From the IMG/VR virus record IMGVR_UViG_3300022074_005186, positions 1 through 27,074 of that record: 27,074 nt of DNA; one strand, 5' to 3'. Below are positions 765 to 18,611 of the stretch, piece after piece. Below the pieces are notes generated by a model. It had not been told where the DNA came from. It ran no database searches and saw nothing but the letters and a program-made list of their open reading frames with translations. Origin of the DNA: a virus. Positions within the stretch are counted from its first letter, which is position 1. Each line of letters opens with the position of its first letter. A program made the position numbers and the translations under genes.

Positions 765-792
765 ATTATAACATATAATTTGTTAATTACAA
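765..792 (-). promoter_or_regulatory. Extended -10 sigma70-like promoter overlapping the end of psbD
   Basis: The minus strand reads TTGTAA (792-787), a 16-base spacer ending in TGT, then TATAAT (770-765). The TGnTATAAT arrangement is an extended -10 element. The predicted start falls at or just before the hairpin at 747-764. The -35 box overlaps the psbD stop codon. Confidence 0.5.
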
Positions 793-1863
793 GGCATTAC
801 CACGAGGTAATACTTCTTCTGGGAACACGAAGTTCTCATGTGGTTGGTCAACTGATGACATCCATGCTCTCATACCTTCATTAAGAAGAATGTTCTTCGT
901 GTAGAAAGTCTCGAACTCTGGGTCTTCTGCTGCTCTTATCTCTTGAGATACGAAGTCGTATGCTCTGAGGTTAAGTGCTAGACCTACAATACCAATTGAT
1001 GATGTCCACATACCCATCACAGGTACGAACAACATAAGGAAGTGTAAGAATCTTTTGTTTGAAAATGCTATACCAAATATCTGTGACCAGAATCTGTTTG
1101 CTGTAATCATACTATAAGTTTCTTCTTCCTGTGTAGGGTCAAATGCTCTGAATGTAGAACTCTGAACCTTTCCATCAGTATAGACTGATGTGTCTTCATA
1201 CAAAGTGTTCTGTACTGTTGCACCGTGAATGGCACATAGTAATGCTCCACCTAGTATACCTGCTACACCCATCATATGAAATGGATTGAGAGTTATATTG
1301 TGGAAACCTTGAATGAATAAGATATAACGAAAGATTGCTGCGACACCGAATGAAGGTGCGAAGAACCAACTATGCTGCCCTAGTGGGTAGATTAAAAAGA
1401 TGCTAGTGAAGACTGCGATAACAGCAGAGAATGCAAGAGCATTGTAAGGACGAATCCCAACAAGTCCTGCGATCTCAAATTGTCTGAGCATGAATCCTAT
1501 AAGACCGAATACACCGTGAAGTGCTACGAAGTTCCAGAGTCCACCGAGTTGTAACCAACGAACGAATGAACCTTGTGCTTCAGGCCCCCATAAGAACATA
1601 AGACTATGACCCATTGCATCTCCGGGTGTGGAGACTGCTGCTGTCAAAAAGTTTGCTCCTTCAAGATATGAAGATGCAATACCATGTGTATACCATGATG
1701 TCACGAAAGTAGTTCCAACGAACCAACCTCCGATAGAAAGGTAAGCACAAGGTAGAAGTAGAAGACCAGACCATCCGATGAATACGAAACGATCTCTCTT
1801 TAACCAGTCATCAAGAACATCGAACCAACCCCTTGTAGGTGCTTGTAAGGTAGATGCTACCAT
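787..1863 (-). CDS. psbD: Photosystem II reaction-centre protein D2
   Basis: A full-length 358-residue D2, the partner of D1 in the photosystem II core, carrying the P680 and plastoquinone QA side. It matches D2 from end to end, from [16 protein letters not shown] near the N-terminus to the terminal VLPRGNAL. His196 in [10 protein letters not shown] corresponds to the chlorophyll ligand His197, His188 to the partner of Tyr-D, and Tyr159 to Tyr-D itself. The loop around 222-235 ([14 protein letters not shown]) is longer than in freshwater cyanobacteria, as in marine picocyanobacteria. The start ATG has an AGGAG at 1874-1870. It lies 60 bases behind psbA with a terminator hairpin between them. 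During infection it would resupply D2 as host protein synthesis falls. Confidence 0.97.
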
Positions 1864-1877
1864 TAATTTCTCCTATG

Positions 1878-1901
1878 AAAAAGGGGTCACGAAGACCCCT
1901 T
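1878..1901 (-). terminator. Intrinsic terminator/attenuator in the psbA-psbD gap
   Basis: On the minus strand AAGGGGTC, a TTCGT loop and GACCCCTT form an 8-bp stem (1901-1881) that runs into a T-run at 1882-1878. It lies just upstream of the psbD ribosome-binding site. It should end a fraction of psbA transcripts, making D1 message more abundant than D2 message, or protect the psbA 3' end after processing. Confidence 0.75.
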
Positions 1902-1923
1902 GATTTATTATTTGATTAATGAA

Positions 1924-3012
1924 TTAACCAATTGCAGGTGCTGTTAAAGCAACTGTTGTAGACTCAGCAGATGCTAGGTCTAATGGGAAGTTGTGTGCAT
2001 TTCTTTCGTGCATTACTTCCATTCCAAGGTTTGCTCTGTTAAGAACATCTCCCCATGTTGGTACAATCTTACCGTTTGCATCTACAACTGATTGGTTGAA
2101 GTTGAAACCGTTAAGGTTGAATGCCATTGTACAGATACCCATAGAGGTTAACCATACACATACAACTGGGAACACTGCTAAGAAGAAGTGTAATGATCTA
2201 GAGTTGTTGAAAGAAGCATACTGGAAGATAAGACGACCAAAGTAACCGTGTGCAGCTACAATGTTGTATGTTTCTTCTTCTTGTCCGAACTTATAGCCGT
2301 AGTTTTGACTCTCTGTTTCTGTAGTTTCTCTGATTAGAGATGAAGTAACTAAAGAACCGTGCATTGCACTGAAGAGACTACCACCGAACATACCTGCTAC
2401 TCCTGCCATGTGGAAAGGATGCATTAGTATGTTGTGTTCTGCTTGGAACACGAACATGAAGTTGAACGTACCTGAGATACCTAGAGGCATACCGTCTGAG
2501 AAAGATCCCTGACCGAATGGGTATACTAAGAATACTGCAAATGCTGCAGATACAGGTGCTGAATATGCTACACATATCCAAGGTCTCATACCTAAACGGT
2601 ATGATAATTCCCACTGTCTTCCCATGTATGCTGAGATACCAATGAGGAAGTGGAAGATTACCAACTGGTAAGGGCCACCATTATAGAGCCACTCATCTAC
2701 GGTTGCTGCTTCCCAAATTGGGTAGAAGTGTAAACCGATTGCGTTGGAAGATGGAACTACAGCACCAGAGATGATGTTGTTACCATATAAGAATGAACCA
2801 GCTACTGGTTCTCTGATTCCGTCGATATCGACAGGAGGTGCTGCTATGAAAGCAACGATGAAACATGCTGCTGCTGCGAGTAAGCATGGAATCATGAGTA
2901 CACCGAACCAACCAACGTAGATTCTGTTGTTTGTTGATGTTACCCATTCGCAGAACTGTGGCCAGCCTGCTAGTAGACCTTGCTGTCTACCTTGTTTTGA
3001 AAGAGTTGTCAT
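1924..3012 (-). CDS. psbA: Photosystem II reaction-centre protein D1
   Basis: A full-length, uninterrupted 362-residue D1, the high-turnover photosystem II subunit that carries P680, Tyr-Z, QB and most ligands of the Mn4Ca cluster. Numbering is three higher than the usual D1 scheme. Tyr164 is Tyr-Z (161), Asp173 is the Mn ligand Asp170, Glu192 and His193 are 189 and 190, and His201 is the P680 ligand 198. Gln133 equals position 130, giving the D1:1-type (low-light, Gln) form. The C-terminus has [13 protein letters not shown] followed by a 15-residue extension that CtpA would remove. No group I intron is present. The ATG lacks a strong Shine-Dalgarno sequence and follows a long structured leader (3013-3190). 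Confidence 0.98.
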
Positions 3013-3033: not shown

Positions 3034-3048
3034 GCATCAGGGAGATGC
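3034..3048 (-). promoter_or_regulatory. Hairpin just upstream of the psbA start codon
   Basis: GCATC, a TCCCT loop and GATGC on the minus strand, ending 21 bases before the psbA ATG. It occupies the region where a ribosome would load, so it may modulate translation. The stem is only 5 bp. Confidence 0.35.
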
Positions 3049-3050
3049 GA

Positions 3051-3058
3051 TATTTATT
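3051..3058 (-). promoter_or_regulatory. Second late-promoter-like box inside the psbA leader
   Basis: AATAAATA on the minus strand, matching the late box seen before the tail-fibre gene at 26248 and the oxygenase gene at 6525. If used, it would give a psbA transcript with a leader of about 30 nt that skips the upstream hairpins. Confidence 0.4.
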
Positions 3059-3193
3059 TCCAGTAATCCCTCACTACTGGATATGAAAGACGAAGTATTA
3101 TAGTGCCTACGGAGGTCTTGGTTGGGAGCACTTTGTAGTCAGGGTTACGATTGTTTCGAGTCCGTCCTAATGGTGAGGAAACCCTCACTGATG

Positions 3194-6542: not shown

Positions 6543-6549
6543 CAAGGAC

Positions 6550-6586
6550 AAAAAAATACCTCACCCTATTTAAAGGCATGAGGTAT
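6550..6586 (-). terminator. Intrinsic terminator of the hli cluster
   Basis: ATACCTCA and TGAGGTAT form an 8-bp stem (6586-6579 with 6563-6556), with a 15-base loop that can add two G-C pairs. A seven-T run follows on the minus strand (6556-6550). It lies 11 bases after the last hli stop codon and separates the hli unit from the late gene at 6525. Confidence 0.85.
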
Positions 6587-6597
6587 ATAAAGTCAAG

Positions 6598-6696
6598 TTA
6601 AAGTGTATGTTTTGTTATAAAGATTAGAATTCCTAACATTGCCAATCTGCCATTTATGAGTTCGGCATATCTCCAATAAGAGTGATTCCAATCCAT
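6598..6696 (-). CDS. hli: High-light-inducible protein, very short
   Basis: A 32-residue HLIP, the last gene of the cluster. HLIPs are single-helix relatives of LHC proteins that bind chlorophyll and carotenoid and protect photosystem II or assembly intermediates in the thylakoid. The core YAELINGRLAMLGILIF carries the Glu...Asn-Gly-Arg...Met chlorophyll-binding motif. It stops soon after the helix (KHTL) and lacks the TTGQIIPG tail of the other family members, so it is a near-minimal version. Its ATG overlaps the previous stop codon in a TAATG arrangement, which indicates translational coupling. It is too short for most automatic gene callers. Confidence 0.8.
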   Translation of the reverse strand: MDWNHSYWRYAELINGRLAMLGILIFITKHTL

Positions 6697-6800
6697 TATA
6701 TTAGTCCTGCTGATCCTGCTGCAGTTCCTACTACAACAAAGAATGCGAACTCTGCAAGTCCCAACCATGCAGGTGGGATCTTTAAAAATTGTTTGGTCAT
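6696..6800 (-). CDS. 34-aa single-pass membrane protein, unknown
   Basis: A short protein: a polar N-terminus (MTKQFLKIPPAW), then a hydrophobic helix over residues about 13-34 rich in Ala, Gly and Val. I do not recognise it. A GAGGAG lies 11 bases before the ATG, and an in-frame stop immediately upstream fixes the start. Its stop overlaps the next ATG (TAATG). Its place among hli genes suggests a thylakoid membrane partner or a small photosystem-type subunit, but this is inference only. Confidence 0.55.
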   Translation of the reverse strand: MTKQFLKIPPAWLGLAEFAFFVVVGTAAGSAGLI

Positions 6801-6829
6801 TTAAGCTTGTACTCCTCAGCTATTAAGTT

Positions 6830-6904
6830 TTATGAAAATACGAACGGTAGTCCGTTGACTGCAGTGAATGCTACCGCACACGCAAAAGTAATTTGATAGA
6901 TCAT
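6830..6904 (-). CDS. 24-aa hydrophobic micropeptide
   Basis: A candidate gene of 24 codons encoding an almost wholly hydrophobic peptide (MIYQITFACAVAFTAVNGLP...). Its ATG overlaps the stop of the 57-aa gene (TAATG), the same coupling used across this cluster, and a 29-base gap with a GAGGAG follows before the next gene. The length is enough for one membrane helix. It could be chance; the coupling and composition are the only support. Conservation in related phages would settle it. Confidence 0.45.
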   Translation of the reverse strand: MIYQITFACAVAFTAVNGLPFVFS

Positions 6905-7077
6905 TATGCTCCTTGGTAAACTGGTGTCATTACTCCACCGCCTTCATCATCATCGTCATCGTCATCAGCAACACGAAAGAACATTTCAACTGCAACAAGA
7001 ACACTCATAGGATAAAAAACCCATGCAATGGCTTTCCATACTGGAAATGAATCTGATGCTAATTGGAAATCAATCAT
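6904..7077 (-). CDS. 57-aa membrane protein with acidic tail, unknown
   Basis: A short protein with a hydrophobic helix (about residues 14-35, WKAIAWVFYPMSVLVAVEMFF) followed by a run of seven Asp and a Glu, then GGG and a polar end. I do not recognise it. The acidic patch would sit at one face of the membrane and could bind cations or basic partner proteins. It starts after the one real gap in the cluster (7078-7121), and its stop overlaps the next ATG. A small accessory protein of the photosynthetic membrane is the natural guess from context. Confidence 0.65.
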   Translation of the reverse strand: MIDFQLASDSFPVWKAIAWVFYPMSVLVAVEMFFRVADDDDDDDEGGGVMTPVYQGA

Positions 7078-7121
7078 ATTAATTGTGACAATTTGTTAAT
7101 AATATTTAGTTTTGTAAAGTT

Positions 7122-7211
7122 TTAAGCAAGAACACTTGTAAAAGTACTTGTTCCCAGTGCCAACATAAAGATGTATGGCACTACTTTAAATGGTACTGGA
7201 TGTCTTTTCAT
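7122..7211 (-). CDS. 29-aa single-pass membrane protein, unknown
   Basis: A 29-codon gene coupled by TAATG to the preceding hli. A basic N-terminus (MKRHPVPFK) is followed by a hydrophobic stretch (residues about 10-29) ending in SVLA. This resembles a signal anchor or the very small subunits of photosystem or cytochrome b6f complexes, but I cannot match it to a named one. N-in topology would be expected from the positive N-terminal charge. Confidence 0.5.
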   Translation of the reverse strand: MKRHPVPFKVVPYIFMLALGTSTFTSVLA

Positions 7212-7339
7212 TATACGAAACCGGGAATAATTTGGCCTGTTGTTAAGTAAGCACCTAATCCTGCGATGATACCTAGCATTGCTAGTCTACCGTTAAGTTT
7301 TTCAGCAACTAACTTTTCCTTTTCAATTTCTTTTTTCAT
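7211..7339 (-). CDS. hli: High-light-inducible protein
   Basis: A 42-residue HLIP. A charged N-terminal helix start (MKKEIEKEK) is followed by the complete chlorophyll-binding core AEKLNGRLAMLGIIAG (about 12-27) and the viral-type tail TTGQIIPGFV. It would insert in the thylakoid membrane and bind chlorophyll and carotenoid near photosystem II. It starts 4 bases after the previous small gene and its stop overlaps the next ATG. Confidence 0.9.
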   Translation of the reverse strand: MKKEIEKEKLVAEKLNGRLAMLGIIAGLGAYLTTGQIIPGFV

Positions 7340-7343
7340 TTTT

Positions 7344-7436
7344 CTATTTAAAATCTTGTAATTGTTTTTTGGTATAGATGAGTATCGTTACAGTGAATGA
7401 GATTACTAAAAATAAAAATTCACCTAATGGACTCAT
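7344..7436 (-). CDS. 30-aa single-pass membrane protein, unknown
   Basis: A 30-codon gene: a short N-terminus (MSPLGE), one hydrophobic helix (residues about 7-21) and a basic-polar C-terminus (YTKKQLQDFK). The size and layout resemble low-molecular-mass photosystem II or cytochrome b6f subunits (PsbT, PetN, PetL class), but there is no residue-level match that I trust. The ATG overlaps the stop of the preceding hli (TAATG). Confidence 0.55.
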   Translation of the reverse strand: MSPLGEFLFLVISFTVTILIYTKKQLQDFK

Positions 7437-7591
7437 TAAAATATACCGGGGATGATTTGACCTGTTGTTGCGTATGCACCGACTGCTGCTACGAAACCTA
7501 ACATTGCTGCCCAACCATTAAATCTTTCTGCTTCTGGAGTCATGAGTTTTTCCTCTTTGTAATTAATTGTGAATTGTGAATTGAATTTCAT
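7436..7591 (-). CDS. hli: High-light-inducible protein with altered core motif and two possible starts
   Basis: A 51-residue HLIP. In the core AERFNGWAAMLGF the usual Arg of NGR is replaced by Trp. In LHC-type helices that Arg forms a salt bridge with the chlorophyll-binding Glu of the partner helix, so pairing may differ. The tail TTGQIIPGIF matches the other members. There are two good starts: the ATG at 7591, preceded by AAGGAG, and an internal ATG at 7543, preceded by AGAGGA, which would give a 35-residue form. The longer form adds a polar stretch (KFNSQFTINYKEEK). I list the longer frame, but both may be made. Confidence 0.85.
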   Translation of the reverse strand: MKFNSQFTINYKEEKLMTPEAERFNGWAAMLGFVAAVGAYATTGQIIPGIF

Positions 7592-7601
7592 CTAAGTCTC
7601 C

Positions 7602-7715
7602 TTAGAATAGGCCTGGAGCGATCCAACCTGTAAGTCCGTAGTTGACTACGGCTGCGAAGAAACCAATCATTGCTAAACGACCATTGATTTGTTCTGCGTT
7701 CTTCCAATAGTTCAT
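7602..7715 (-). CDS. hli: High-light-inducible protein
   Basis: A 37-residue HLIP with the core NAEQINGRLAMIGFFAAV followed by NYGLTGWIAPGLF. The Glu, Asn and Arg of the chlorophyll-binding motif are intact. The start chosen here is the ATG at 7715-7713, which overlaps the stop codon of the preceding hli (TAATG). A longer in-frame start exists inside the upstream gene but adds only an implausible His-rich stretch. It should act in the thylakoid as a dimer or with another single-helix protein. Confidence 0.9.
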   Translation of the reverse strand: MNYWKNAEQINGRLAMIGFFAAVVNYGLTGWIAPGLF

Positions 7716-7912
7716 TAGAAAATACCGGGGATGATTTGTCCTGTGGTGATGTATGCACCGAGTAGTGCAACGAAACCGATCATTGCCCAACGACCGTTTA
7801 CTTTCTCAGCGTTTTGAGGATAGCTGTCGTATGAAACTGACTTATCAATGTAAGGTCTTGTTTCATTTGGAAAAGCATTTTGTCTTCCACCACTTTCTGT
7901 TGTAACAGTCAT
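7715..7912 (-). CDS. hli: High-light-inducible protein, first gene of the hli operon
   Basis: A 65-residue HLIP and the longest of the five. A polar N-terminal region of about 33 residues (MTVTTESGGRQNAFPNE...) precedes the core NAEKVNGRWAMIGFVALLGAY and the tail TTGQIIPGIF. It resembles ordinary cyanobacterial Hli proteins, which carry such N-terminal extensions. It lies about 20 bases downstream of the start predicted from the perfect sigma70 promoter at 7940-7968. No clear Shine-Dalgarno sequence is visible. During infection it would help protect photosystem II from excess light. Confidence 0.93.
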   Translation of the reverse strand: MTVTTESGGRQNAFPNETRPYIDKSVSYDSYPQNAEKVNGRWAMIGFVALLGAYITTGQIIPGIF

Positions 7913-7939: not shown

Positions 7940-7968
7940 ATTATATAGTAATTATAAAGTTTTGTCAA
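7940..7968 (-). promoter_or_regulatory. Perfect-consensus sigma70 promoter of the hli cluster
   Basis: TTGACA (7968-7963), exactly 17 bases, then TATAAT (7945-7940) on the minus strand, with the start expected near 7933. Both hexamers match the bacterial consensus fully. This points to transcription by unmodified host RNA polymerase, that is, early expression of the photoprotection genes. The -35 box lies inside an inverted repeat (7956-7973). Confidence 0.88.
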
Positions 7969-8031: not shown

Positions 8032-8835
8032 TTATTGGGGGGTTTCTGGGTTACTTACCCTGTTTAGGTATGGATCGTAGTTTAACAGATCTGTTACATT
8101 AAAGTTACACCCTTGCTGTTGCCACCAGTTCCATTGCCCTTCTCGGTTGCTTCGATGGATTGCATCTATATGCTCTGGATGAATTGAAGATCCAAGTTCT
8201 AACTTGTAAAGAAACAAAGGCATTGAATAGGTATTACCTGAGTTGTATATTAAATCATCAGCCACTGCTCTTGGTTTTGCACCATTATCAAGTTTGTATT
8301 TACCATTCCTCTCATGAAACTTAAGTAACTTCTCTGCATGATGACGATTGATCATATAACATGCTGTAGAAAAATCATTTACAAATCTTCTGTGTAGTTT
8401 AACATGAATCGATCCTGTACATATGATTGCAAGTTGAACTACATCCCAATCATAAGGAAGATTTGCCATGAAGTCTCTCCATGTAAAGTTCCAAAACTTA
8501 ACTAAATCAAGATCAATATCATCTTCCATGATCAAAGCATAGGAACTATCAGAAGTATCATACCAATGTTTGATTGCTTTGAGATGTGATGTTGTACATC
8601 CAACCTCCCCAGATGTCATTGATTCTGGGTAAGTTCCTTTGATGATATCACTTAAGTCATCATCACGACCATCGTATGCAGAGATTCTTGTATAGTTTTC
8701 AATCTCCCAATACTTAAAGTGATCCTCAACATACTTTCTTCTCTCAGGTTGCCCATCAATATTCAAGTAATAGATTGGAGGAATGTTTTGGAGTTTATAT
8801 GCTGCTTTGTTTTTATCCGTCATAAGAGTCATCAT
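8032..8835 (-). CDS. Glycosyltransferase family 25 protein
   Basis: A 267-residue GT25-type transferase, the family that includes LPS galactosyltransferases and collagen galactosyltransferases. The N-terminal IYYLNIDGQPERR (about 21-33) is the family opening, GEVGCTTSHLKAIKHW (76-91) is the second conserved block, and LIMEDDIDL (101-109) holds the acidic metal and sugar-nucleotide-binding residues. DDLIY near 194 is a further family element. It is the last gene of the glycan island, and no strong terminator follows before the hli promoter. Several in-frame ATGs (8835, 8832, 8823) overlap the preceding gene; the one at 8823 gives the shortest overlap. The sugar transferred cannot be predicted. 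Confidence 0.88.
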   Translation of the reverse strand: MMTLMTDKNKAAYKLQNIPPIYYLNIDGQPERRKYVEDHFKYWEIENYTRISAYDGRDDDLSDIIKGTYPESMTSGEVGCTTSHLKAIKHWYDTSDSSYALIMEDDIDLDLVKFWNFTWRDFMANLPYDWDVVQLAIICTGSIHVKLHRRFVNDFSTACYMINRHHAEKLLKFHERNGKYKLDNGAKPRAVADDLIYNSGNTYSMPLFLYKLELGSSIHPEHIDAIHRSNREGQWNWWQQQGCNFNVTDLLNYDPYLNRVSNPETPQ

Positions 8836-9436
8836 ACTTTAAAACAAAAAAACCATTACCATAAGGAAACTTATCTATCCACTTCTTCTTGATAGATCCG
8901 AACTCATAAGAAAACTTAACCAATTCAAATCCATTCTTTTCAAACATATTAATCCACCATTCCTCATCCTTCTTTGTCACATGAGTAACATCAACTTCAT
9001 ACTCACGAATACGAAAGCGATCATTATCACCAAGAGGTATAGTAAAAAAGAATTGATCAGACTTTTGTTTGAACAAATGTAAAACAGCAGGTATGTCAAC
9101 TTCTTCAACATGCTCTAACATATCTTTACATATGAGTAGATCATATATTTTTTTATTTGGTGCTGACAAATAATCCTTAACTGCAGGATGACAATTTGCA
9201 ATTGCATAGTCACTCATGTCCTCACCATACGCTTTCGATCCGAGTATACGAAGAGCATGTACAAGAAATCCTTTAGCACATCCATAGTCAACACAATTAT
9301 CAAAATCAAAATAATTTTGAATATCTAATGCTTCTGGTATTGATCTTGTTGGTTGCCAACTATAATTTTCATATCCAGAGATGTGCTTTCTCACCCCATC
9401 CTCATAGTAGTCTTTTGTAAAAAGATGCATAGTCAT
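8813..9436 (-). CDS. SAM-dependent class I methyltransferase
   Basis: A 207-residue Rossmann-fold methyltransferase. VDYGCAKGFLVHAL (49-62) is the glycine-rich SAM-binding motif I, and DLLICKDMLEHV is motif IV/post-IV with the acidic residue typical of Methyltransf_11/23-type enzymes. It overlaps the radical SAM gene by 4 bases (ATGA) and the GT25 gene at its other end. In this setting it most probably methylates a sugar of the glycan, as O-methylation caps many surface polysaccharides, but a small-molecule or protein target cannot be ruled out. Confidence 0.85.
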   Translation of the reverse strand: MTMHLFTKDYYEDGVRKHISGYENYSWQPTRSIPEALDIQNYFDFDNCVDYGCAKGFLVHALRILGSKAYGEDMSDYAIANCHPAVKDYLSAPNKKIYDLLICKDMLEHVEEVDIPAVLHLFKQKSDQFFFTIPLGDNDRFRIREYEVDVTHVTKKDEEWWINMFEKNGFELVKFSYEFGSIKKKWIDKFPYGNGFFVLKYDDSYDG

Positions 9437-10563
9437 GCAAAGTCATTATGTATTGTATCAGTAAGAACGTCATCTATCAACTCATTTTGGATTGCATACT
9501 TACAGTAGTGACAACCATGATGTCGAAGTGTGGGTGGCTTACTATAGAAATCTATTATACCATCAACATCGCAAACTGCAAACTGTGACTCTGGCACATA
9601 GTTATAATTGTTTTCAATTGATAACTCTGCAGATGGACAGGCATAGATGTAACCATCGGTGAATAGAAATGGTTTAACCATATGCATATAGCAATGATCA
9701 TTTCTTCTCTCACCTTTAAAGTTGAAGTCTGATAGGAATGCAGATTGTAATTTACGTCCTCTATCTTTTTCATACTCTTCTATAATACCACGGATTGTTT
9801 CAATATCCTTTGCGGTTTCTTTCACATCCTTAATTGCATTGAAAGCAATACGACATGGAATTTTATTCTCTTCAACCCAATCCAACATTCTTACAAAGTT
9901 GTCAGTCGTTTGAAATTTCTTTGATTGTATTCTCTTGTTCTTTACGTCAGTCCACTCACCTGTGATATTCGGATTGTTTGAAGTTGCTAGGTTCTCATCC
10001 CACACATATGCTGCTGATGGTTTACAATTAGTTCCTTCAAATACTCTTAGATCATATTCATATCCTTCATAAAAACCATACATTCCCATGCGAACCCAAT
10101 CAAAGAGTTCAACAATATCTTTTTTGATTGGACGATCCATTCCAAATCTTGCAGCATTAGTACAGATACCTAAACTAAATCCAAGATCCTTTGCATATCT
10201 TACAATCTTTTTAAAGTCTGGATGAATACTTGGTTCACCACCACCTGTAAACTCAACACCAGTAACACCAATTGCTTTGAAACTATCAAGTGCTTTGAGC
10301 ACTGTTTCTGTTGGCATCTTTTCTGAGATGTCACGATTCGCAAAACAACAAAATGAGCAAGTTAAATTGCAAGCATTTGTCAAAGAGATATGTGCCATCA
10401 CTGGAGAGGGTGGTTTACCCTGTTGGATTGCTTCCAACTTATCCATGTGCTTCAGCATCTTTGTCAGATTACTACTGAAACTACGTCCTTGTACTACGTC
10501 GTCTTCTTTTCTAAAAGTTCCGTCCTGATTAAAAACTGGGACTCCTTTATAAGGCACTGTCAT
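9433..10563 (-). CDS. Radical SAM protein with C-terminal cysteine cluster
   Basis: A 376-residue radical SAM enzyme (numbering from the ATG at 10563). Cys65, Cys69 and Cys72 in NACNLTCSFCC bind the 4Fe-4S cluster that cleaves SAM, and FTGGGEPSIHPDF is the SAM-binding GGE-type motif. The C-terminal region has further cysteines (HCYMHM, ACPSAEL, AVCDVDG, GCHYCKYA), like a SPASM-type auxiliary cluster domain. I chose this start because it forms a TAATG overlap with the upstream stop and has AAGGAG at a good distance; an ATG at 10581 is also in frame. Its neighbours are glycosyltransferases and a methyltransferase, so radical modification of a sugar (epimerisation, dehydration or methylation) is a plausible inference. 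The reaction is unknown. Confidence 0.85.
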   Translation of the reverse strand: MTVPYKGVPVFNQDGTFRKEDDVVQGRSFSSNLTKMLKHMDKLEAIQQGKPPSPVMAHISLTNACNLTCSFCCFANRDISEKMPTETVLKALDSFKAIGVTGVEFTGGGEPSIHPDFKKIVRYAKDLGFSLGICTNAARFGMDRPIKKDIVELFDWVRMGMYGFYEGYEYDLRVFEGTNCKPSAAYVWDENLATSNNPNITGEWTDVKNKRIQSKKFQTTDNFVRMLDWVEENKIPCRIAFNAIKDVKETAKDIETIRGIIEEYEKDRGRKLQSAFLSDFNFKGERRNDHCYMHMVKPFLFTDGYIYACPSAELSIENNYNYVPESQFAVCDVDGIIDFYSKPPTLRHHGCHYCKYAIQNELIDDVLTDTIHNDFA

Positions 10564-11261
10564 TAATAATGCTCCTTCCATTGATGAATCACGGGTAGGT
10601 CAGGATTACCTTCTCGAACCTCTCCTAACCAGAGTGCTACCTCATATTTATAACCTCTCTTGGCGAAGTGATATGTAAGATTTGCATCAACAGCACCAAG
10701 CATATTATACGATGCAGAATCCTCTTCCATCATACGATCCATATTATTTTGAATGTCTTCTACTACATCATTATACACGGAAAGAAAAGTTTTTGCATTG
10801 TAGATTGATCCTCCACACATTCCGTAATGTGTTGCAATTTGATTTGTACAATTGTAGATATCAGTAATCATCTTACCAGTAAATTGATTTCCAATTCTAA
10901 CACCTCTTAATTGAAATGGTGGATTGATATTAAATGGTCTTCTTACATATACATCATCTTCCATAATCATCGTATAATCTAATCCAGTTTCTTCACACAC
11001 AAGTTTTTGTCTCTTCCACCATTCAATTGTACGGTATGCATTGTATGGAAACTTTGGATAGTTATTGACATCATCACCAAATATATTTTCTCTCATAAAA
11101 AATTTGCATCCAAACTCATCTGCCATGTATGTAAAATCATCTCCTCCATCAGAGATTAAAACAACCGGATTATCTGGAAACTGTTTTCTAAAATTTTCTA
11201 ATACAAATCTAACTGCCTTGTGGTTTTTATAGACTTGATAAAATACTCCAAACTCTGTCAT
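10563..11261 (-). CDS. GT-A-like glycosyltransferase
   Basis: A 232-residue protein with the look of a short GT-A transferase: an N-terminal VFYQVYKNHKAVRFVLENF region, VVLISDGGDDF (33-43), and an acidic TMIMEDDVYVRRPF segment (97-110) that would hold the metal and nucleotide sugar. A later GMCGGSIYNAKTF region resembles the acceptor side of such enzymes. It overlaps the carbamoyltransferase by 4 bases and the radical SAM gene by 1 base (TAATG). I cannot assign a CAZy family or sugar from sequence reading alone. Confidence 0.72.
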   Translation of the reverse strand: MTEFGVFYQVYKNHKAVRFVLENFRKQFPDNPVVLISDGGDDFTYMADEFGCKFFMRENIFGDDVNNYPKFPYNAYRTIEWWKRQKLVCEETGLDYTMIMEDDVYVRRPFNINPPFQLRGVRIGNQFTGKMITDIYNCTNQIATHYGMCGGSIYNAKTFLSVYNDVVEDIQNNMDRMMEEDSASYNMLGAVDANLTYHFAKRGYKYEVALWLGEVREGNPDLPVIHQWKEHY

Positions 11262-12811
11262 GATGTAAACAAATAATCCTCAATAACAACGTAGTCCATC
11301 TCAGTATTTTCTAATGCATAAAGTGCATCTTCAATCGTTGAGAGAATTGGGTATCCACGAATATTAAATGATGTATTTAATAAAACATTTGTTTCTGATA
11401 GTTTACCAAACTCTGTCAACAATTCATAGAAATGTGAATGAGATTCTTCTGTTACGGTTTGTAGTCTTGCAGTTCCATCAACGTGTGTAATTGATGGAAG
11501 AGTATCAACCTTAACTCTTGGAGCATAACTCATAAACTCAAGGTTCTCAAAACTGTAAGAATCAAAATACTTAGGAGCATCCTCCTTCTTACAGAAAGGT
11601 GCGAATGGACGATACCATTCACGGAATTTAACTTTTGAATTAAGTATATCTTTCATATCAGGAATGTTAGGATCACATACAATTGAACGATTACCTAATG
11701 CTCTTGGGCCAACTTCTGAATCACCATAGACTAGTCCTATAATCTTACCATCTTTAATTAATTTTGCAATCTCTGCTTTAGTAGTTTTCTTAGCAGAATA
11801 CTCTTTGATAAATTCGTCTAAATCATTTTTATCGACAAGTGGTAAACCTTGATATGTAATATCAATCTTTTTAGATGGTCGATTGTATATCAACATGTGT
11901 CCTAATGATAATGAACCATCATGTGGATTGGGTGGTACAAAAATTTCACGATCATAATACTGTTTGACTTTCTCATTTACTAATACATTCAGTGCACATC
12001 CACCAGTCATAATTAATGGTATCTCAGTATCATACCTATCAAGCACACTAAAAAATGCATCTTCAAATCCTGCCTGTGCTGTTGCTGCAATATCATATCC
12101 ATCCTGTCCTTCAAAGATCCAGTTCTCTAATGGATTTTTCCAAGGACTATCAATATTTTTTAAAGGTAAATTAGTTTTCTTTGCTAACTTTTTATAGTCA
12201 CGATCAAAGAAAAATTCAGAGAATGCAGGGACTAAATCATAATCAATCTTTCCATACCCACACAGACCCATGAGTTTACCAGACAATGCTAATTGATGTC
12301 TACTCTTCTCTGCTACCTCACGAATTAGAGATCCACATAATAAATATCCACCACCAAAATCTGATGGAATATTTTTAAGTAATTTTATCTCAGTTCCATT
12401 CGCAGCATATATGTTAAAGTGTCCATCATCTCCACCACCATCATAAGATACAATGAGTGCCTGTTTAAATGGTGAGAGATAAAATGCTGCAGAAGCATGA
12501 GTCTGATGATGTCTTGCGACTGTGACTACATTATCAGTATTAAAAATTTCTTTTGGATCAACTTGAATAAATCCATCAGAAGAAATTAGAACTGCTTCAT
12601 AATCATTTTCAATACCCCAATCTTCTTCAGCAATCTCTTGACATAATGTAAGTATCTCCTTCTGATACTCAGGTGAATTATCAACATGTAATCTAAAATA
12701 TCTTTTCTTTACAAGTCTTTCTAATTCAATTAAGTGATACTCATCTTTATCAGCATTATAAAATGTGATATTCGCATCATGTCCTGCAAAAATACTAACT
12801 AAGTTTTTCAT
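11258..12811 (-). CDS. O-carbamoyltransferase, NodU/CmcH/TobZ family
   Basis: A 517-residue carbamoyltransferase. Enzymes of this family make carbamoyl-adenylate from carbamoyl phosphate and ATP in a Kae1-like N-terminal domain and pass the carbamoyl group to a sugar hydroxyl. Visible blocks are HHQTHA (101-106, Fe-binding His motif), DGGGDDG (124-130), TGGCALN (269-275), GDSEVGPRALGNRS (363-376), REWYRPFAP (398-406), HVDGTARLQTV (443-453) and NTSFN (479-483), all in family order. The length is slightly under the family's usual 550-600 residues, but no block is missing. It overlaps both neighbours by 4 bases. In this island it should carbamoylate a sugar of the glycan. Confidence 0.93.
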   Translation of the reverse strand: MKNLVSIFAGHDANITFYNADKDEYHLIELERLVKKRYFRLHVDNSPEYQKEILTLCQEIAEEDWGIENDYEAVLISSDGFIQVDPKEIFNTDNVVTVARHHQTHASAAFYLSPFKQALIVSYDGGGDDGHFNIYAANGTEIKLLKNIPSDFGGGYLLCGSLIREVAEKSRHQLALSGKLMGLCGYGKIDYDLVPAFSEFFFDRDYKKLAKKTNLPLKNIDSPWKNPLENWIFEGQDGYDIAATAQAGFEDAFFSVLDRYDTEIPLIMTGGCALNVLVNEKVKQYYDREIFVPPNPHDGSLSLGHMLIYNRPSKKIDITYQGLPLVDKNDLDEFIKEYSAKKTTKAEIAKLIKDGKIIGLVYGDSEVGPRALGNRSIVCDPNIPDMKDILNSKVKFREWYRPFAPFCKKEDAPKYFDSYSFENLEFMSYAPRVKVDTLPSITHVDGTARLQTVTEESHSHFYELLTEFGKLSETNVLLNTSFNIRGYPILSTIEDALYALENTEMDYVVIEDYLFTS

Positions 12812-13758
12812 ATCTTACTAATCAAATCCTCAACACAAGGAATATATCTATCCTTGATTACATTGACCCAATCAAAATTAAGTGCGTACTGTATTATAGC
12901 ATCTCGATGAACGATTGAGTATTCTCTGTTCTTAATTATCTCTGCTTCAAGATATTGAATATCATTAATCTTACTCTCAGGTATCACTGTAATGAAATCT
13001 TTTGTAGTATCAAGATTTGCTGCACCATATTCACATACAACAACACCAAGTCCTGCTGCTAATGCTTCCATACAAACAAGAGGATGTGCTTCACCGTCTG
13101 ATAGTAATACAAGATTTCCGTAGTCACTTAGATTCTTATAAAGATGTTCTTTACTCCACTCACCAAGATAATTAATGTTTATATTAAAGTTTGGATCAGC
13201 ATTGTTACCTGCGTAATACAGACTACTGATTGATTGAAACATACTTTGTCTCTTACGATAATCTATCTTTGCAAGATATAAACTACGATCAGGATGTTTT
13301 GGTTTATCTTTACAAACAAATTTACGAGTATTCACACCATTTGGTGTTACATATAAATTAGATTCTTCAATTAATAATTCATTCTTATATACATCTCGGA
13401 TACCGTCTGATAGACAGAAAATCTTTGGTGCTATTCTTTGGAATGGTTTTACAATTCGATCATGATAGTATCCCCATTTATTTGATTGCTCAAGGTATCC
13501 AAAGTGACTTGTGATTGCACAAGGATATTGAATGAAAGGATAGAGTTCGATAAAATCATCATACTGAATATGCACAAAGTCAGGACGATATGCATTTACT
13601 TTCTGTACGATCTCAATAGGACTTTTTGTATTGACAATATCAACTTCATGTCCTAGTTTTTCAAGTGCTAATTTTTGATCCCATATTAATATTTCAACTG
13701 CACCCCAACCAGTCGGAGGGATAGGCATAATACCGGGCCCTATAATTGATATCTTCAT
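12808..13758 (-). CDS. Glycosyltransferase family 4-like protein
   Basis: A 316-residue retaining GT-B transferase. The N-terminus ISIIGPGIMPIPPTGWGAVE (3-22) is the acceptor-domain glycine loop of GT4 enzymes. VTPNGVNTRKF (137-147) precedes the nucleotide-sugar domain. EAHPLVCMEALAAGLGVVV (223-241) contains the EX7E motif (Glu223, Glu231) that contacts the donor sugar. It overlaps both neighbours by ATGA. The donor is probably GDP- or UDP-sugar; which one cannot be told. Confidence 0.9.
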   Translation of the reverse strand: MKISIIGPGIMPIPPTGWGAVEILIWDQKLALEKLGHEVDIVNTKSPIEIVQKVNAYRPDFVHIQYDDFIELYPFIQYPCAITSHFGYLEQSNKWGYYHDRIVKPFQRIAPKIFCLSDGIRDVYKNELLIEESNLYVTPNGVNTRKFVCKDKPKHPDRSLYLAKIDYRKRQSMFQSISSLYYAGNNADPNFNININYLGEWSKEHLYKNLSDYGNLVLLSDGEAHPLVCMEALAAGLGVVVCEYGAANLDTTKDFITVIPESKINDIQYLEAEIIKNREYSIVHRDAIIQYALNFDWVNVIKDRYIPCVEDLISKI

Positions 13759-14552
13759 TCACTTAACTCCGTAAAGATATCCATGTGCTGTCCATTTGTT
13801 CTTGAATAAACTGCAAAATCATCTGGATATTTTTTGACAAGATATCCTAATGCAATCTGTTCATTGTTCACATTATTTTCTGCAATCATTTTATCCATCA
13901 ATACATCATCTACCATCTTCATAATCTTTGGTATGGAATTTTTATGTCCACCAAACATTGATCCTAAAACATAAGAACGATTATCATACAAATAATTTTC
14001 ATCTAATGTTTCTGCTTCATATAGATCAGTATAATATTCACAGTTCATTTGAATCAAAAAACTTTCACCCATACCCTCAAGTTGTTCCATTGCAGACTCA
14101 CCCGGATATGGTTCTGTCAAATCAAAGTTGTTAAAGAATCTTGATCCTCCTGCATCTAACCAAAAGTATACGTCAGAATCAAATGGATTTATTTTTGCTG
14201 CCTGATCTAACCAAGGAAACTTTGAATATTGAATGACAGAATACATTGCCTGTTTACATTCAATACGATCTGGATCTGAAATATTATTTTTATAATCATC
14301 AGAATCAAGTATATCTTGTATTGGTTCTTTTAAATGGTAATAAGGTATCTCTTCTGATGTAATGTGAACTGTCTTTGTAGGAAGATCTCCTCTTCTTTCA
14401 TCAACAAACTCTTGTAAATCTTCTGTGATAAACAATAACATTGGCACACGAAGTTTGAGTGTAACATCAAACCATTTAAGATACTGATCCCACTTACGAC
14501 CATCTACTCTATCAATGTCAAAGAGTGCAGAAACAAAGGTTACATTTTTCAT
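13755..14552 (-). CDS. HtrL/YibB (WlaTC)-like putative glycosyltransferase
   Basis: A 265-residue protein matching the HtrL/YibB/WlaTC pattern: an opening FVSALFDIDR (6-15), a WDQYLKWF segment with VPMLLFI (36-42), and DVYFWLDAGGSRFF (127-140) with the acidic DAG motif in the position of a DxD. Members lie in LPS and capsule loci and are thought to be glycosyltransferases, though few have been tested. It overlaps the GT6 gene by 4 bases and the GT4 gene by 4 bases. The reaction is unknown. Confidence 0.78.
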   Translation of the reverse strand: MKNVTFVSALFDIDRVDGRKWDQYLKWFDVTLKLRVPMLLFITEDLQEFVDERRGDLPTKTVHITSEEIPYYHLKEPIQDILDSDDYKNNISDPDRIECKQAMYSVIQYSKFPWLDQAAKINPFDSDVYFWLDAGGSRFFNNFDLTEPYPGESAMEQLEGMGESFLIQMNCEYYTDLYEAETLDENYLYDNRSYVLGSMFGGHKNSIPKIMKMVDDVLMDKMIAENNVNNEQIALGYLVKKYPDDFAVYSRTNGQHMDIFTELSE

Positions 14553-15265
14553 ACTTGATACGCGGAGTTGTCTTTTGCTAAGTGAACGATTCTTGGTTTG
14601 AATGTACAGTGTTCTTTAAAAACTTCTGGATATGCAAACTCAGGGCCAAAGGTATGAACCTTATCCTGATTTTCGATGAAGAAACGATTGATATGACTTT
14701 CATCATGCCAGACTGCAACGACCTTTCTCTTCAGATCATCATTCGTTCTTTCTTCTAACTCATCTATCATAGCACATACTTCGGGTACTTTGCCACCCCA
14801 GAAACATCCTTGATAATAAACCTGTGGTTGATACTTATCTAAGTCTAATGATGCAAGTGAACTTTCATTTGTTTCAAATGCTCCCGGTAATTTATTATGA
14901 GGATTCATACCTAAGAAGTGACATGGATGATGTACACCATACAAAGGTTTATCTGTAAAGAATTCTTCTTCTGTTATTGTATCTACAACTAACGCATCAG
15001 CATCTATGAATACTAAGTAATCACACTCTTTTATTTCTTCTCTTGCTTTATTGATGATCCTAAATCTCTCAAGGGTGATATAAGGCCACTCAAGATGCTC
15101 TTGCTCAAAGACTTTGACATCATCAGGGAAATCCCCATCACCATCCGTGAATACCAGAAAAACTTTTTCGGTGTTTGGTAAAAAATATTGTTTAATATTT
15201 TCATAATATCGTGGTAAAAAATCCAGATATTTATTTGTACCAATAAAGGTAATCGCTACTTTCAT
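14549..15265 (-). CDS. Family 6 glycosyltransferase (ABO/alpha-1,3-Gal(NAc)-transferase type)
   Basis: A 238-residue GT6 enzyme, corresponding to the catalytic domain of the vertebrate family (ABO A/B transferases, GGTA1, Forssman synthase) with no signal anchor or stem. Key blocks are ITFIGTNKYLDFLPRYYEN (5-23), YLVFIDADALVVD (83-95) with the Mn-binding D88-A-D90, YYQGCFWGGK (150-159) in the donor/acceptor site, and VWHDESHINRFF (185-196), the hallmark WHDESH motif. Most bacterial members have NxN in place of DxD; this one keeps DxD as vertebrate enzymes do. It overlaps the GT11 gene by 4 bases. Expected activity is alpha-1,3 transfer of Gal or GalNAc to a Gal that may carry alpha-1,2-fucose. 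Confidence 0.9.
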   Translation of the reverse strand: MKVAITFIGTNKYLDFLPRYYENIKQYFLPNTEKVFLVFTDGDGDFPDDVKVFEQEHLEWPYITLERFRIINKAREEIKECDYLVFIDADALVVDTITEEEFFTDKPLYGVHHPCHFLGMNPHNKLPGAFETNESSLASLDLDKYQPQVYYQGCFWGGKVPEVCAMIDELEERTNDDLKRKVVAVWHDESHINRFFIENQDKVHTFGPEFAYPEVFKEHCTFKPRIVHLAKDNSAYQV

Positions 15266-16050
15266 AATACAGTCCAGTTAGAACAGTAAATATCTGTAGT
15301 ATCTAGGTGTGAATTATCCGACCCCTCAAACCATCCTTTCGGTGCAATAACTTTTTTACTATTAGATAACCATGCACCCCACCATGAGAATGAACTATTT
15401 GCAATTATATGTCCAGTACACATTGTCATTAAACATAAATCAAGATACGCATCATCATTATCAGATATCATAAAACGATCATCCGCAAACAACTCATGTT
15501 CTTTACACCAATCAGGATCATCTGAAAATATCAGGACAGGGCCAACATCAAAATATGAGAGTGCTTTCTCATAATAATCCATACTTAAACAAGTATGATT
15601 TGGATTTGTAATATAATCTGTACGACGAATATGTAATGCTGTTGCATCACCAATACTCGACATCATCTCCTGACAAGGAATTTTTATATCATCACGGAAA
15701 GTAAAATCCTGTTTAATCTCATTCTTTATATGTTTAAAATATTTTTCTGTCTGAAAGAAACCTTGAACTGATACCCAATCAGGACACTTGTTAAATAAGT
15801 TCTGATCAAAACCAAATCCACTCTCTACAACAGTTGGACGATCAGGATCAATGTACTGTATGTTTAGTTCATTAGTACTACTTAACTTAAAAGGAATTAA
15901 TAATTGATGATCTCTCCATTCATCTTTATTTGCTGATGGAGGAAAGCAAAATTGATAACCATTATTTCGTGCAATACCTTTTAAGGATGCAAATTGAAAC
16001 ATCTGATTACCAAGTCTACCAAGTTGACCGAGTGCATTAAATCCTATCAT
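15262..16050 (-). CDS. Family 11 alpha-1,2-fucosyltransferase
   Basis: A 262-residue GT11 enzyme using GDP-L-fucose. GRLGNQMFQFA (11-21) is the N-terminal family block, ALHIRRTDY (138-146) the GDP-fucose-binding HxRRxDY motif, and ANSSFSWWGAWL (217-228) the C-terminal block. The start at 16050 is chosen because it forms the ATGA overlap with fcl; an upstream in-frame ATG (16065) adds only five residues. It follows the two genes that make its donor and precedes the GT6 gene. GT11 enzymes usually add fucose alpha-1,2 to galactose. Specificity is a family expectation, not visible in the sequence. Confidence 0.92.
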   Translation of the reverse strand: MIGFNALGQLGRLGNQMFQFASLKGIARNNGYQFCFPPSANKDEWRDHQLLIPFKLSSTNELNIQYIDPDRPTVVESGFGFDQNLFNKCPDWVSVQGFFQTEKYFKHIKNEIKQDFTFRDDIKIPCQEMMSSIGDATALHIRRTDYITNPNHTCLSMDYYEKALSYFDVGPVLIFSDDPDWCKEHELFADDRFMISDNDDAYLDLCLMTMCTGHIIANSSFSWWGAWLSNSKKVIAPKGWFEGSDNSHLDTTDIYCSNWTVL

Positions 16051-17042
16051 TCTTGATCCATCCAACTCATGAATCTTGAAATTGGATTTGCACTTTGTTT
16101 TGGTTCTTCATACCCAAGATTATTTTTATACCACTTATATGTTGATTCAATACCTTCTCTCAGACTAATCTTTGGTTCCCATCCAAGTGCTTTCATCTTA
16201 TCTACATTTAAGACTTTGCGTGGTGTACCATTTGGTTTTGATGTATCCCATTCATAGTCATTCTCATAACCAGTCACATCAATAATTGTCTCTGCCAGTT
16301 CTTTAATTGTCACATCTTCTCCTGTACCGATGTTGATGATCTCTTCGTCATCATACTTATCCATACAAATATACAATGCTTCTGCAAGATCGTCAACATG
16401 TAGAAACTCTCTCTTTGCAGATCCATCACCCCAGAGTTTGACTACCCATGCTTTACTCTTCTCCAATGAACCATGAAACTTAGATATCAATGCAGGAAGA
16501 ACATGAGATGAATTATGATCGAAGTTATCATTCGGGCCATAAAGATTTGTTGGCATTACAGAGATTGCATTGAAACCATACTGTTTACGATATGACTGAC
16601 ACATATTAATACCTGCAATCTTTGCAACTGCATATGCAGAATTGCTTGATTCAAGATGACCTGACATCAATTGATCTTCTGTGATTGGTTGGTTTGCAAA
16701 CTTTGGATAGATACAAGATGATCCTAAGAATAATAACTTCTTAACTCCTGACTTTGCAGCACTACTAATGACATTTGTTTGTATCATCAGATTCTCATAG
16801 ATGAAGTCAGCAGGATACTCAGCATTTGCACCGATACCACCGACCTTTGCAGCAGCAAGAAACACATACTCAGGTTGTTCCATCATAAAGAACATCTGAA
16901 CATCATGTAGTTTAGTCAGATCAAGTTTGATTCGATCCATTGTAATAATATTCGTAAATCCTTTTGATTCAAGATTACGAACGATTGCAGAACCAACTAA
17001 TCCGTTATGTCCTGCAACAAAAATTTTAGATTCACTGTCCAT
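16047..17042 (-). CDS. fcl: GDP-L-fucose synthase
   Basis: A 331-residue short-chain dehydrogenase/reductase that epimerises and reduces GDP-4-keto-6-deoxy-D-mannose to GDP-L-fucose with [15 protein letters not shown] (11-20) is the nucleotide-binding loop, GSSCIYPK (107-114) holds the catalytic Ser and Cys, and Tyr137-Lys141 form the YxxxK pair. The length is normal for the family (about 320). The gene overlaps gmd and ends in an ATGA overlap with the fucosyltransferase. The chosen ATG has GAGGA eleven bases upstream; a TTG at 17060 is a possible longer start. It makes the fucose donor for the gene behind it. Confidence 0.96.
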
Positions 17043-18036
17043 AGATACACATGTCCTCAACTAATTGATCAAATGTTGTTTTGGGTTCCCATCCTAACTT
17101 TTCTTTTGCTTTGCTCGGATCTCCTAACAAAGACTCGACTTCTGCAGGACGGAAATATCTTTCGTCTGTTCTAATTATATCTCTTGCAAGACTTCGACAG
17201 TAACCAACTTCGCCTCCATTTGACCATCTAAAATCAATTGAGAAACCAAAATAGGGTGCTGCTTTCATAATAAAGTCTTTCACAGAATACTGCTCACCGG
17301 TTGCAATCACATAATCATCTGGTTCATCTTGCTGTAGCATCAACCACATAGCCTCTACAAAGTCCTTTGCATGACCCCAATCTCTCTTTGCATTGAGATT
17401 TCCAAGAACTAATTCTCTTTGCATTCCAACAGAAATTTTAGATAGACCTCTTGTAATCTTACGAGTTACAAATGTCTCACCTCTTCTTGGTGATTCATGA
17501 TTAAACAAAATACCAGAACTACAATGCATACCATATGCTTCACGATAGTTCTTGATTATCCAGTAACCATATAGTTTTGCTACACCATAAGGTGATCGTG
17601 GATAAAAAGGTGTTGTCTCTGTTTGAGGAACTGCTTGAACTAAACCATAAAGTTCAGAAGTAGATGCCTGATAGATACGAGTCTTTTTCTCCATACCAAG
17701 AAGGCGAACAGCCTCAAGAACTCTCAGAGTTCCAAGACCATCCACCTGTGCTGTATATTCTGGTATCTCAAAAGAAACTTTTACATGACTTTGAGCACCA
17801 AGATTGTAGATTTCATCTGGTTCTATCTTTTTAATAACACCAATAATGTTTGTGGCATCAGTCAGATCACCATAATGAAGATGTATATCCTCATAGATGT
17901 GATCAATTCGATCAGTATTAATTAGAGAGGCACGACGAACAATTCCATGCACCTCATACCCCTTCTCTAAGAGAAGTTCGGCAAGATAAGAACCATCCTG
18001 ACCTGTAATACCTGTAATTAAGGCAACTTTAGACAT
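17032..18036 (-). CDS. gmd: GDP-mannose 4,6-dehydratase
   Basis: A 334-residue extended SDR enzyme that converts GDP-D-mannose to GDP-4-keto-6-deoxy-D-mannose, the first committed step to GDP-fucose and related deoxysugars. [15 protein letters not shown] (6-20) is the NADP-binding loop, STSELYG (125-131) carries the catalytic Thr and Glu, and Tyr150-Lys154 complete the triad. [15 protein letters not shown] (179-193) is a strongly conserved Gmd block. It is slightly shorter than enteric Gmd (about 370). No mannose-1-phosphate guanylyltransferase is in the window, so GDP-mannose must come from the host or from elsewhere in the phage genome. Confidence 0.97.
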
Positions 18037-18256
18037 CTTTTACATAACAAGGAACACCTGCAGGGTCTAACCACTTTGTATATTCAAAGTCATCAATCGC
18101 AGTTTTGAACTGCATGAAGTTATCACAGAGGTACATGTCCTTGTAACCATTGTAATTATTCCACTTCTGAATACGATAGTCAGGTTGACCATTCTCAAGT
18201 AAATCAGGCATCTTTACATACCTATATGGTTCATTCTGTAGGAGTACTTCAATCAT
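18029..18256 (-). CDS. 75-aa protein, first gene of the glycan island, unknown
   Basis: A small soluble protein that I do not recognise. It is rich in Tyr, Asp and Asn ([17 protein letters not shown] near 31-47) with two cysteines and no membrane segment. It overlaps gmd by 8 bases and is the first coding sequence behind the sigma70 promoter at 18278-18306. No Shine-Dalgarno sequence is evident. Its position suggests a role in the island or its regulation, but it could equally be an unrelated early-expressed gene. Confidence 0.6.
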
Positions 18257-18326: not shown

Positions 18327-18611
18327 TCAGCGTCTTACTACGATATCTCCATCATCGTCATCTTCATCGTCATCTTCGATCTCTTCCATGCGTTCTCGTA
18401 ACGACTGATACAAGTCTGGTGACTGTTCAACTGGTTTTACACCCACATATAGTATCTCTTCTCCTTCTTTTGGTGCCTCTGGATGAGTTCTTGTACCATA
18501 TCTTCTCGTTGTTTCCTTTTTTATATCAGAAATATTTCTCCACATCAAAGAAAATGCTGCTCCCCCAATTGCAAAGAGAGAAGCAATATATAAAAATGCT
18601 AACATGTCCAT
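18327..18611 (-). CDS. Small membrane protein with acidic C-terminus, unknown
   Basis: A 94-residue protein: one N-terminal membrane helix (residues about 3-24), a basic segment (KKETTRRYGTRTH), and an extremely acidic stretch near the end (EEIEDDDEDDDDGD) before VVRR. It starts with a TAATG overlap behind the 128-aa gene, so the two are probably made together. I do not recognise either. A pair of small membrane proteins downstream of tail fibres could be lysis-related, but the order and motifs do not prove it. Confidence 0.65.
   Translation of the reverse strand: MDMLAFLYIASLFAIGGAAFSLMWRNISDIKKETTRRYGTRTHPEAPKEGEEILYVGVKPVEQSPDLYQSLRERMEEIEDDDEDDDDGDIVVRR

Follow-up and report, generated by a model that had tools for sequence, protein, structure and literature searches.

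Conserved genes for single-helix microproteins interleaved with hli genes in a cyanophage operon, and their possible partnership with HLIPs

Few photosynthesis genes are carried by marine phages as commonly as those for HLIPs. In the 27,074-nucleotide stretch of DNA analyzed here (the window), a T4-like cyanophage fragment with psbD and psbA at 787-3012, a compact minus-strand unit at 6598-7912 holds hli genes together with other very short ORFs. What are these other genes, and do their products work with the HLIPs? The unit has ten short ORFs, every one starting at ATG, in the transcription order h1 h2 h3 u1 h4 u2 u3 u4 u5 h5, where h marks an HLIP gene and u one of the five others. The encoded lengths, in the same order, are 65, 37, 51 (or 35), 30, 42, 29, 57, 24, 34, and 32 aa, and each of u1-u5 has one 19-residue stretch with a mean hydropathy of 1.6-2.0. 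The initial annotation of this DNA, made from the letters alone, had the ten tiny ORFs right. Its description of HLIP and other genes as alternating holds as far as interleaving goes but not in the strict sense, the real order being h h h u h u u u u h; and its count of at least six TAATG junctions was too high, the actual number being five (at 7715, 7436, 7211, 6904, and 6696). The junctions lacking TAATG are gaps of ~4 to 45 nt.

A protein was called an HLIP if it had a single helix, an ExxNGR-type pigment-binding motif, and a match to PF00504 or phrog_178. All of h1-h5 match both families, two of them above the Pfam cut-off, bearing out the proposal that the unit encodes five HLIPs. The first, h1 (7715-7912), has a long N-terminus and the motif EKVNGR (phrog_178, E 1.7e-28). 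It is followed by h2 (7602-7715), which overlaps h1 through TAATG and has EQINGR (PF00504, 8e-05; also phrog_178), and by h3 (7436-7591), with ERFNGW (phrog_178, 4.4e-22). The h3 frame gives 51 aa from its first ATG or 35 aa from an internal ATG at 7543, where relatives start; its homologs in hosts and in P-SSM4 have 35 aa. Further along are h4 (7211-7339), with EKLNGR and a match to phrog_20629 (1.4e-21), and h5 (6598-6696), with ELINGR, a divergent C-terminus, a TAATG overlap with u5, and a PF00504 match above the gathering score (4.8e-06). By contrast, u1-u5 gave no PF00504 or phrog_178 match at E values up to 10, and all five lack the ExxNxR motif. The five h genes thus belong to the multi-copy hli family of cyanophages and Prochlorococcus (PF00504, phrog_178, T4-GC 267/436) and sit in the same island setting. 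Exchange of HLIPs between phage and host is already established, and the published hli reports that we found name the hli genes only, the interleaved microproteins not being treated as part of the unit.

Is the unit transcribed as such? Upstream of h1 on the minus strand lies a promoter, TTGACA-N17-TATAAT (7940-7968), that matches the consensus at 12/12 positions with a 17-nt spacer and is the sole perfect site of this form in the window. Its counterpart is present in 82 of 86 distinct relatives (12/12 in 62 and 11/12 in 20), relatives that are not independent because many were picked by h1 similarity; shuffled sequences reach 11/12 in ~0.6 of 86. At the other end (~6548-6586, minus strand), a Rho-independent terminator has the hairpin TACCTCATGCC...GGGTGAGGTA followed by U7 (RNA fold -17.2 kcal/mol, z -3.65). 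The unit therefore has its own consensus promoter and terminator, as had been proposed.

The next question is whether the u frames are genes at all. Viral loci were collected with u3 alone (39) and with h1 (80), isolates were added, and profiles were iterated; u2 and u5 were traced through the loci fetched with u3 and h1. The iterated profiles detected u3 in 118 phage loci, u5 in 104, u2 in 67, and u4 in 23. The order hli(3-6)-u2-u3-u4-u5 recurs in ~110 phage arrays, some members being absent in some phages, and hli genes lie close by in 39/39 of the viral loci fetched by u3 alone, a search in which hli was not used. P-HM2 carries the hli-u cassette. Within sets of equal length or close subfamilies, median dN/dS in frame is 0.27-0.33 for u2, 0.28 for u3, 0.16-0.22 for u4 within its subfamily, and 0.21 for the main length class of u5, as against ~0.8-1.8 in the other frames of the same alignments. 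Pooling over divergent subfamilies gives higher values for u4 (0.69) and u5 (0.61), which we ascribe to saturation and alignment. Judged by these substitution patterns, u2-u5 are real protein families under purifying selection. With the host homologs of u1 described below, all five of the 24-, 29-, 30-, 34-, and 57-aa frames are conserved, the property whose lack the initial annotation had named as fatal to its proposal.

Two of the families had been seen before, under other names. The u3 gene (6904-7077) encodes a single-helix protein with a poly-Asp tail and the C-terminus MTPVYQGA, and its residues 3-57 match phrog_7843 (5.7e-24). It thus belongs to phrog_7843 / T4-GC 437 and 273, with P-SSM4 gp181, P-SSM2 gp278, and PMED4_15491 of MED4. 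The latter is transcribed and is homologous to the P-SSM4 and P-SSM2 genes, and among cyanobacteria its homologs are confined to Prochlorococcus, many of which carry one (Steglich et al. 2008, PMC2518516); in the parts of that report consulted here, this family is not linked to hli arrays, analyzed as a family, or assigned a function. An AlphaFold2 model of u3 amounts to one long helix (residues 2-10 and 13-37) with an extended acidic tail. Matches to rhodopsin helices in a PDB profile search were dismissed as due to chance. In one locus (L053:3573-3742) the u3 frame is broken within the Asp-codon repeat, a break that a sequencing error or slippage in the GAT/GAC tract would explain. The u5 gene (6696-6800) encodes a single helix with the motif EFxFFxxVGxxAGSxGL, and residues 4-34 match phrog_17067 (4.2e-08), placing it in phrog_17067 / T4-GC 594 with P-SSM2 gp279.1 and P-HM2 PHM2_203, which are described as hypothetical only. 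Another family of short proteins, MNYYQTLQMFIAIFSGTVILTSLFVVMMSSMMEE (phrog_28108), occurs downstream of u5 in some loci (L011:3565-3678, L068, L081, L127).

The suggestion that the non-HLIP members are too short for normal gene callers accordingly fails for u3 and u5, which some phage annotations list as hypothetical proteins and for which PHROG families exist, but stands for u1, u2, and u4. The u2 gene (7122-7211), which overlaps h4 through TAATG, encodes a single helix with the motif KRxPVPFKVVPYIF; S-SSM4 and S-SSM6b have no annotated feature at the u2 match, nor do P-SSM3, P-SSM4, and P-RSM3 at the u4 match. A u2-like N-terminal membrane anchor (KRPxxxRxxPRIF) is also present in a protein labeled 'carboxylesterase/esterase' (T4-GC 438, phrog_14182) that is encoded downstream of u5 in many arrays (for example L007:5128-5502 and L022:3313-3669); Pfam gave no esterase domain for it.

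The smallest member, u4 (6830-6904), overlaps u3 through TAATG and has its Shine-Dalgarno sequence inside the end of u3. Between u3 and u5, 93 phage loci have an ORF of 24-28 aa, exactly 24 aa in 46/56 distinct proteins and always with the ATG kept. These proteins fall into subfamilies so divergent that identity to the window u4 drops to 9% in the alignment; common descent of the proteins in this slot is likely. At 24 residues, u4 would rank among the smaller conserved membrane proteins. In 59/59 arrays with u3/u4 TAATG coupling, u3 has QG followed by a small residue at or close to its end, and the bases encoding this QG end also form the u4 Shine-Dalgarno sequence. Many arrays without the coupling have u3 ending in PSG. 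Host u3 proteins frequently end in QGA or QGS with no u4 there, so the ribosome site is not the sole reason for conservation of the tail. That the u3 C-terminus appears to double as the u4 ribosome site is new here. Might some of the short frames then be untranslated, conserved as leader or coupling signals between the HLIP genes? The Shine-Dalgarno overlap does amount to nucleotide constraint at the end of u3, but the coding-type substitution pattern confined to one frame, and the 24-aa length and ATG held across very different u4 sequences, make this explanation highly improbable.

Do the u genes belong to phages alone? For u4, searches of host genomes found none, with a 24-residue query that is a weak one. 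For the others they did: Prochlorococcus hli islands also contain u2, u3, and u5. In 300 sampled Cyanobiaceae genomes, u2 was found in 24, and the host u2 adjoins an h4-like hli gene directly on its 3' side, as in the window. The u3 profile matches 177/300 of these genomes, many of the weaker matches resting on the acidic tail. Of the 36 Prochlorococcus loci found with the u3 alignment, 12 have hli in the flanks, often with u5 as well (one, L137, has five hli genes, u5, and u3), and 24 have no hli within the fetched flanks (up to 3 kb), most of these representing a second context. The u5 gene occurs in 89/300 genomes, and most of its stand-alone loci have no hli nearby; this analysis adds the Prochlorococcus copies of u5 and the EFxFFxxVG motif as a shared feature. 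Host u5 is overlapped downstream by an ORF for a 33-35 aa single helix (L188:1492-1712, L137:2722-2927), possibly a further microprotein.

The most telling host arrangement concerns u1 (7344-7436), a single-helix gene overlapping h3 through TAATG. Profile scans, DNA patterns on viral contigs, and a scan with a u1-like host helix found no viral relatives, and homologs are present in 23/300 sampled Cyanobiaceae genomes. There, u1 is part of a two-helix protein of 86-92 aa, in which it supplies the N-terminal helix and an h4-like HLIP makes up the second half, and in 18/18 loci listed the gene for this protein is TAATG-coupled to the end of an h1-like hli gene; in one host genome a u1-like helix is joined to an h2-like HLIP. 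An ungapped alignment of window u1 with the host helix has ~40% identity and scores 57 against -15 +/- 12 (mean, sd) for shuffled sequences. In the host fusion the HLIP part has the lowest pN/pS (0.035), followed by the u1 part (0.19) and the linker (0.65). A possible distant resemblance of u1 to PsbN, noted by eye, did not show up in Pfam. The u1-HLIP fusion in Prochlorococcus is new here, as are u1, u2, u4, and the conserved cassette; literature searches, which were not exhaustive, found no description of a Prochlorococcus protein that joins an HLIP to a non-HLIP helix and no report of the hli-u cassette, of the u1-HLIP fusion, or of cyanophage small proteins near hli.

These host genes bear on the idea that u1-u5 are peptides with which the phage takes over the cell or acts on membranes (for example by inhibiting host membrane proteins, or in the manner of holins) and that they lie in a strongly expressed operon by chance. 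Small ORFs often gather in phage early and middle operons, which speaks for such a role, as does u4, seen in phages only. Against it, Prochlorococcus has u1, u2, u3, and u5 as genes of its chromosome, some of them in many genomes and under purifying selection, so a host-toxic role fits poorly; the hli neighborhood is also kept in hosts. We consider take-over peptides improbable.

What, then, might the u proteins do? The most likely reading, to which we give a probability of roughly 55%, is that they are partners or placement subunits of HLIP complexes. We favor it because of the hli linkage in phage and host and because of the u1 fusion, which makes the prediction concrete; the initial annotation had suggested HLIP partners, and on these genomic grounds the suggestion gains support, most strongly for u1. 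Only u1 has the fusion in its favor; the argument for u2-u5 is one of linkage. A further consideration is the precedent of Psb34 and Psb35, two small Synechocystis proteins with a single helix that are not HLIPs but tune how HLIPs bind to CP47-containing modules (PMC11449106); u1-u5 may be functionally analogous to them. The N-terminus of Psb34, like that of HliA/B, is considered to bind at CP47 (PMC9458560). The u1-u5 proteins differ from Psb34 in having no match to its family (NF033486). Of the nine window proteins scanned (h1, h3-h5, and u1-u5), one alone matches, h1 through its N-terminus (E 0.002, 18 bits against a cut-off of 45); given where the Psb34 N-terminus is considered to bind, this likeness speaks for the partner reading, though weakly, as it is below the cut-off.

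The u proteins could instead be thylakoid proteins of some other complex (photosystem I, cytochrome b6f, NDH-1, chlorophyll synthase, FtsH control) that are merely co-regulated with HLIPs. Sequence conservation by itself names no partner, and HLIPs are also active together with Ycf39 and close to chlorophyll synthase (PMC11449106). That hosts have copies of u3 and u5 with no hli nearby is in keeping with such a role and weakens the partner reading, as does the lack of a structural relative for u2-u5: their profiles matched no chain of photosystem I or II, b6f, or NDH-1 in the PDB at E values up to 10. The other suggestion of the initial annotation, that the u proteins may be new photosystem subunits, gains no support from these profiles and is not contradicted by them. 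Nor did u1-u5 yield a credible match in NCBIfam or Pfam. The PDB result cuts both ways, u2-u5 being unlike the solved subunits of the named complexes as well. Since hli is always present in the phage loci fetched with u3, and u1 is joined to HLIPs in hosts, service in another complex seems unlikely to us, if less so than a take-over role.

On the HLIP-partner reading, we infer that the u proteins are translated, lie in the membrane, bind HLIPs, and act at photosystem II. Host RNA polymerase would read a photoprotection operon from the consensus sigma-70 promoter, and the five HLIPs and five single-helix proteins would be made together, several of them via TAATG stop-start coupling. The non-HLIP helices would most likely insert in the thylakoid membrane beside the HLIPs and may act in HLIP complexes on assembly or repair intermediates of photosystem II, helping photosynthesis to continue during infection. 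The photosynthesis genes of P-HM2 fall in a middle expression cluster and are strongly expressed in light (PMC5082946). The cassette may be the phage version of the Prochlorococcus hli islands, with genes swapped between phage and host. More tentatively, and with less confidence, we propose that a class of HLIP complexes common to Prochlorococcus and its phages pairs the HLIP helices with dedicated 24-57 aa non-HLIP microproteins, separate or fused, and that phages deliver the full set from one operon, protecting photosystem II. If so, companion microproteins overlooked for their small size would widen the phage photoprotection toolkit, and P-HM2, P-SSM2, P-SSM4, and MED4-213 supply named candidates in cultured phages.

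Three other features of the window were recorded. Positions 8032-18256 (minus strand) hold an extended series of glycan-type genes (sugar-nucleotide enzymes, glycosyltransferases, a radical SAM protein), recognized by eye from the translations. Beyond it, at 18327-18611 (minus strand), is a gene for a 94-aa membrane protein with an Asp/Glu-rich C-terminus and a weak DUF2973 match. Just upstream of the D1 gene, at 3046-3147 (minus strand), lies a PhotoRC-II cis-regulatory RNA (RF01717, 61.9 bits).
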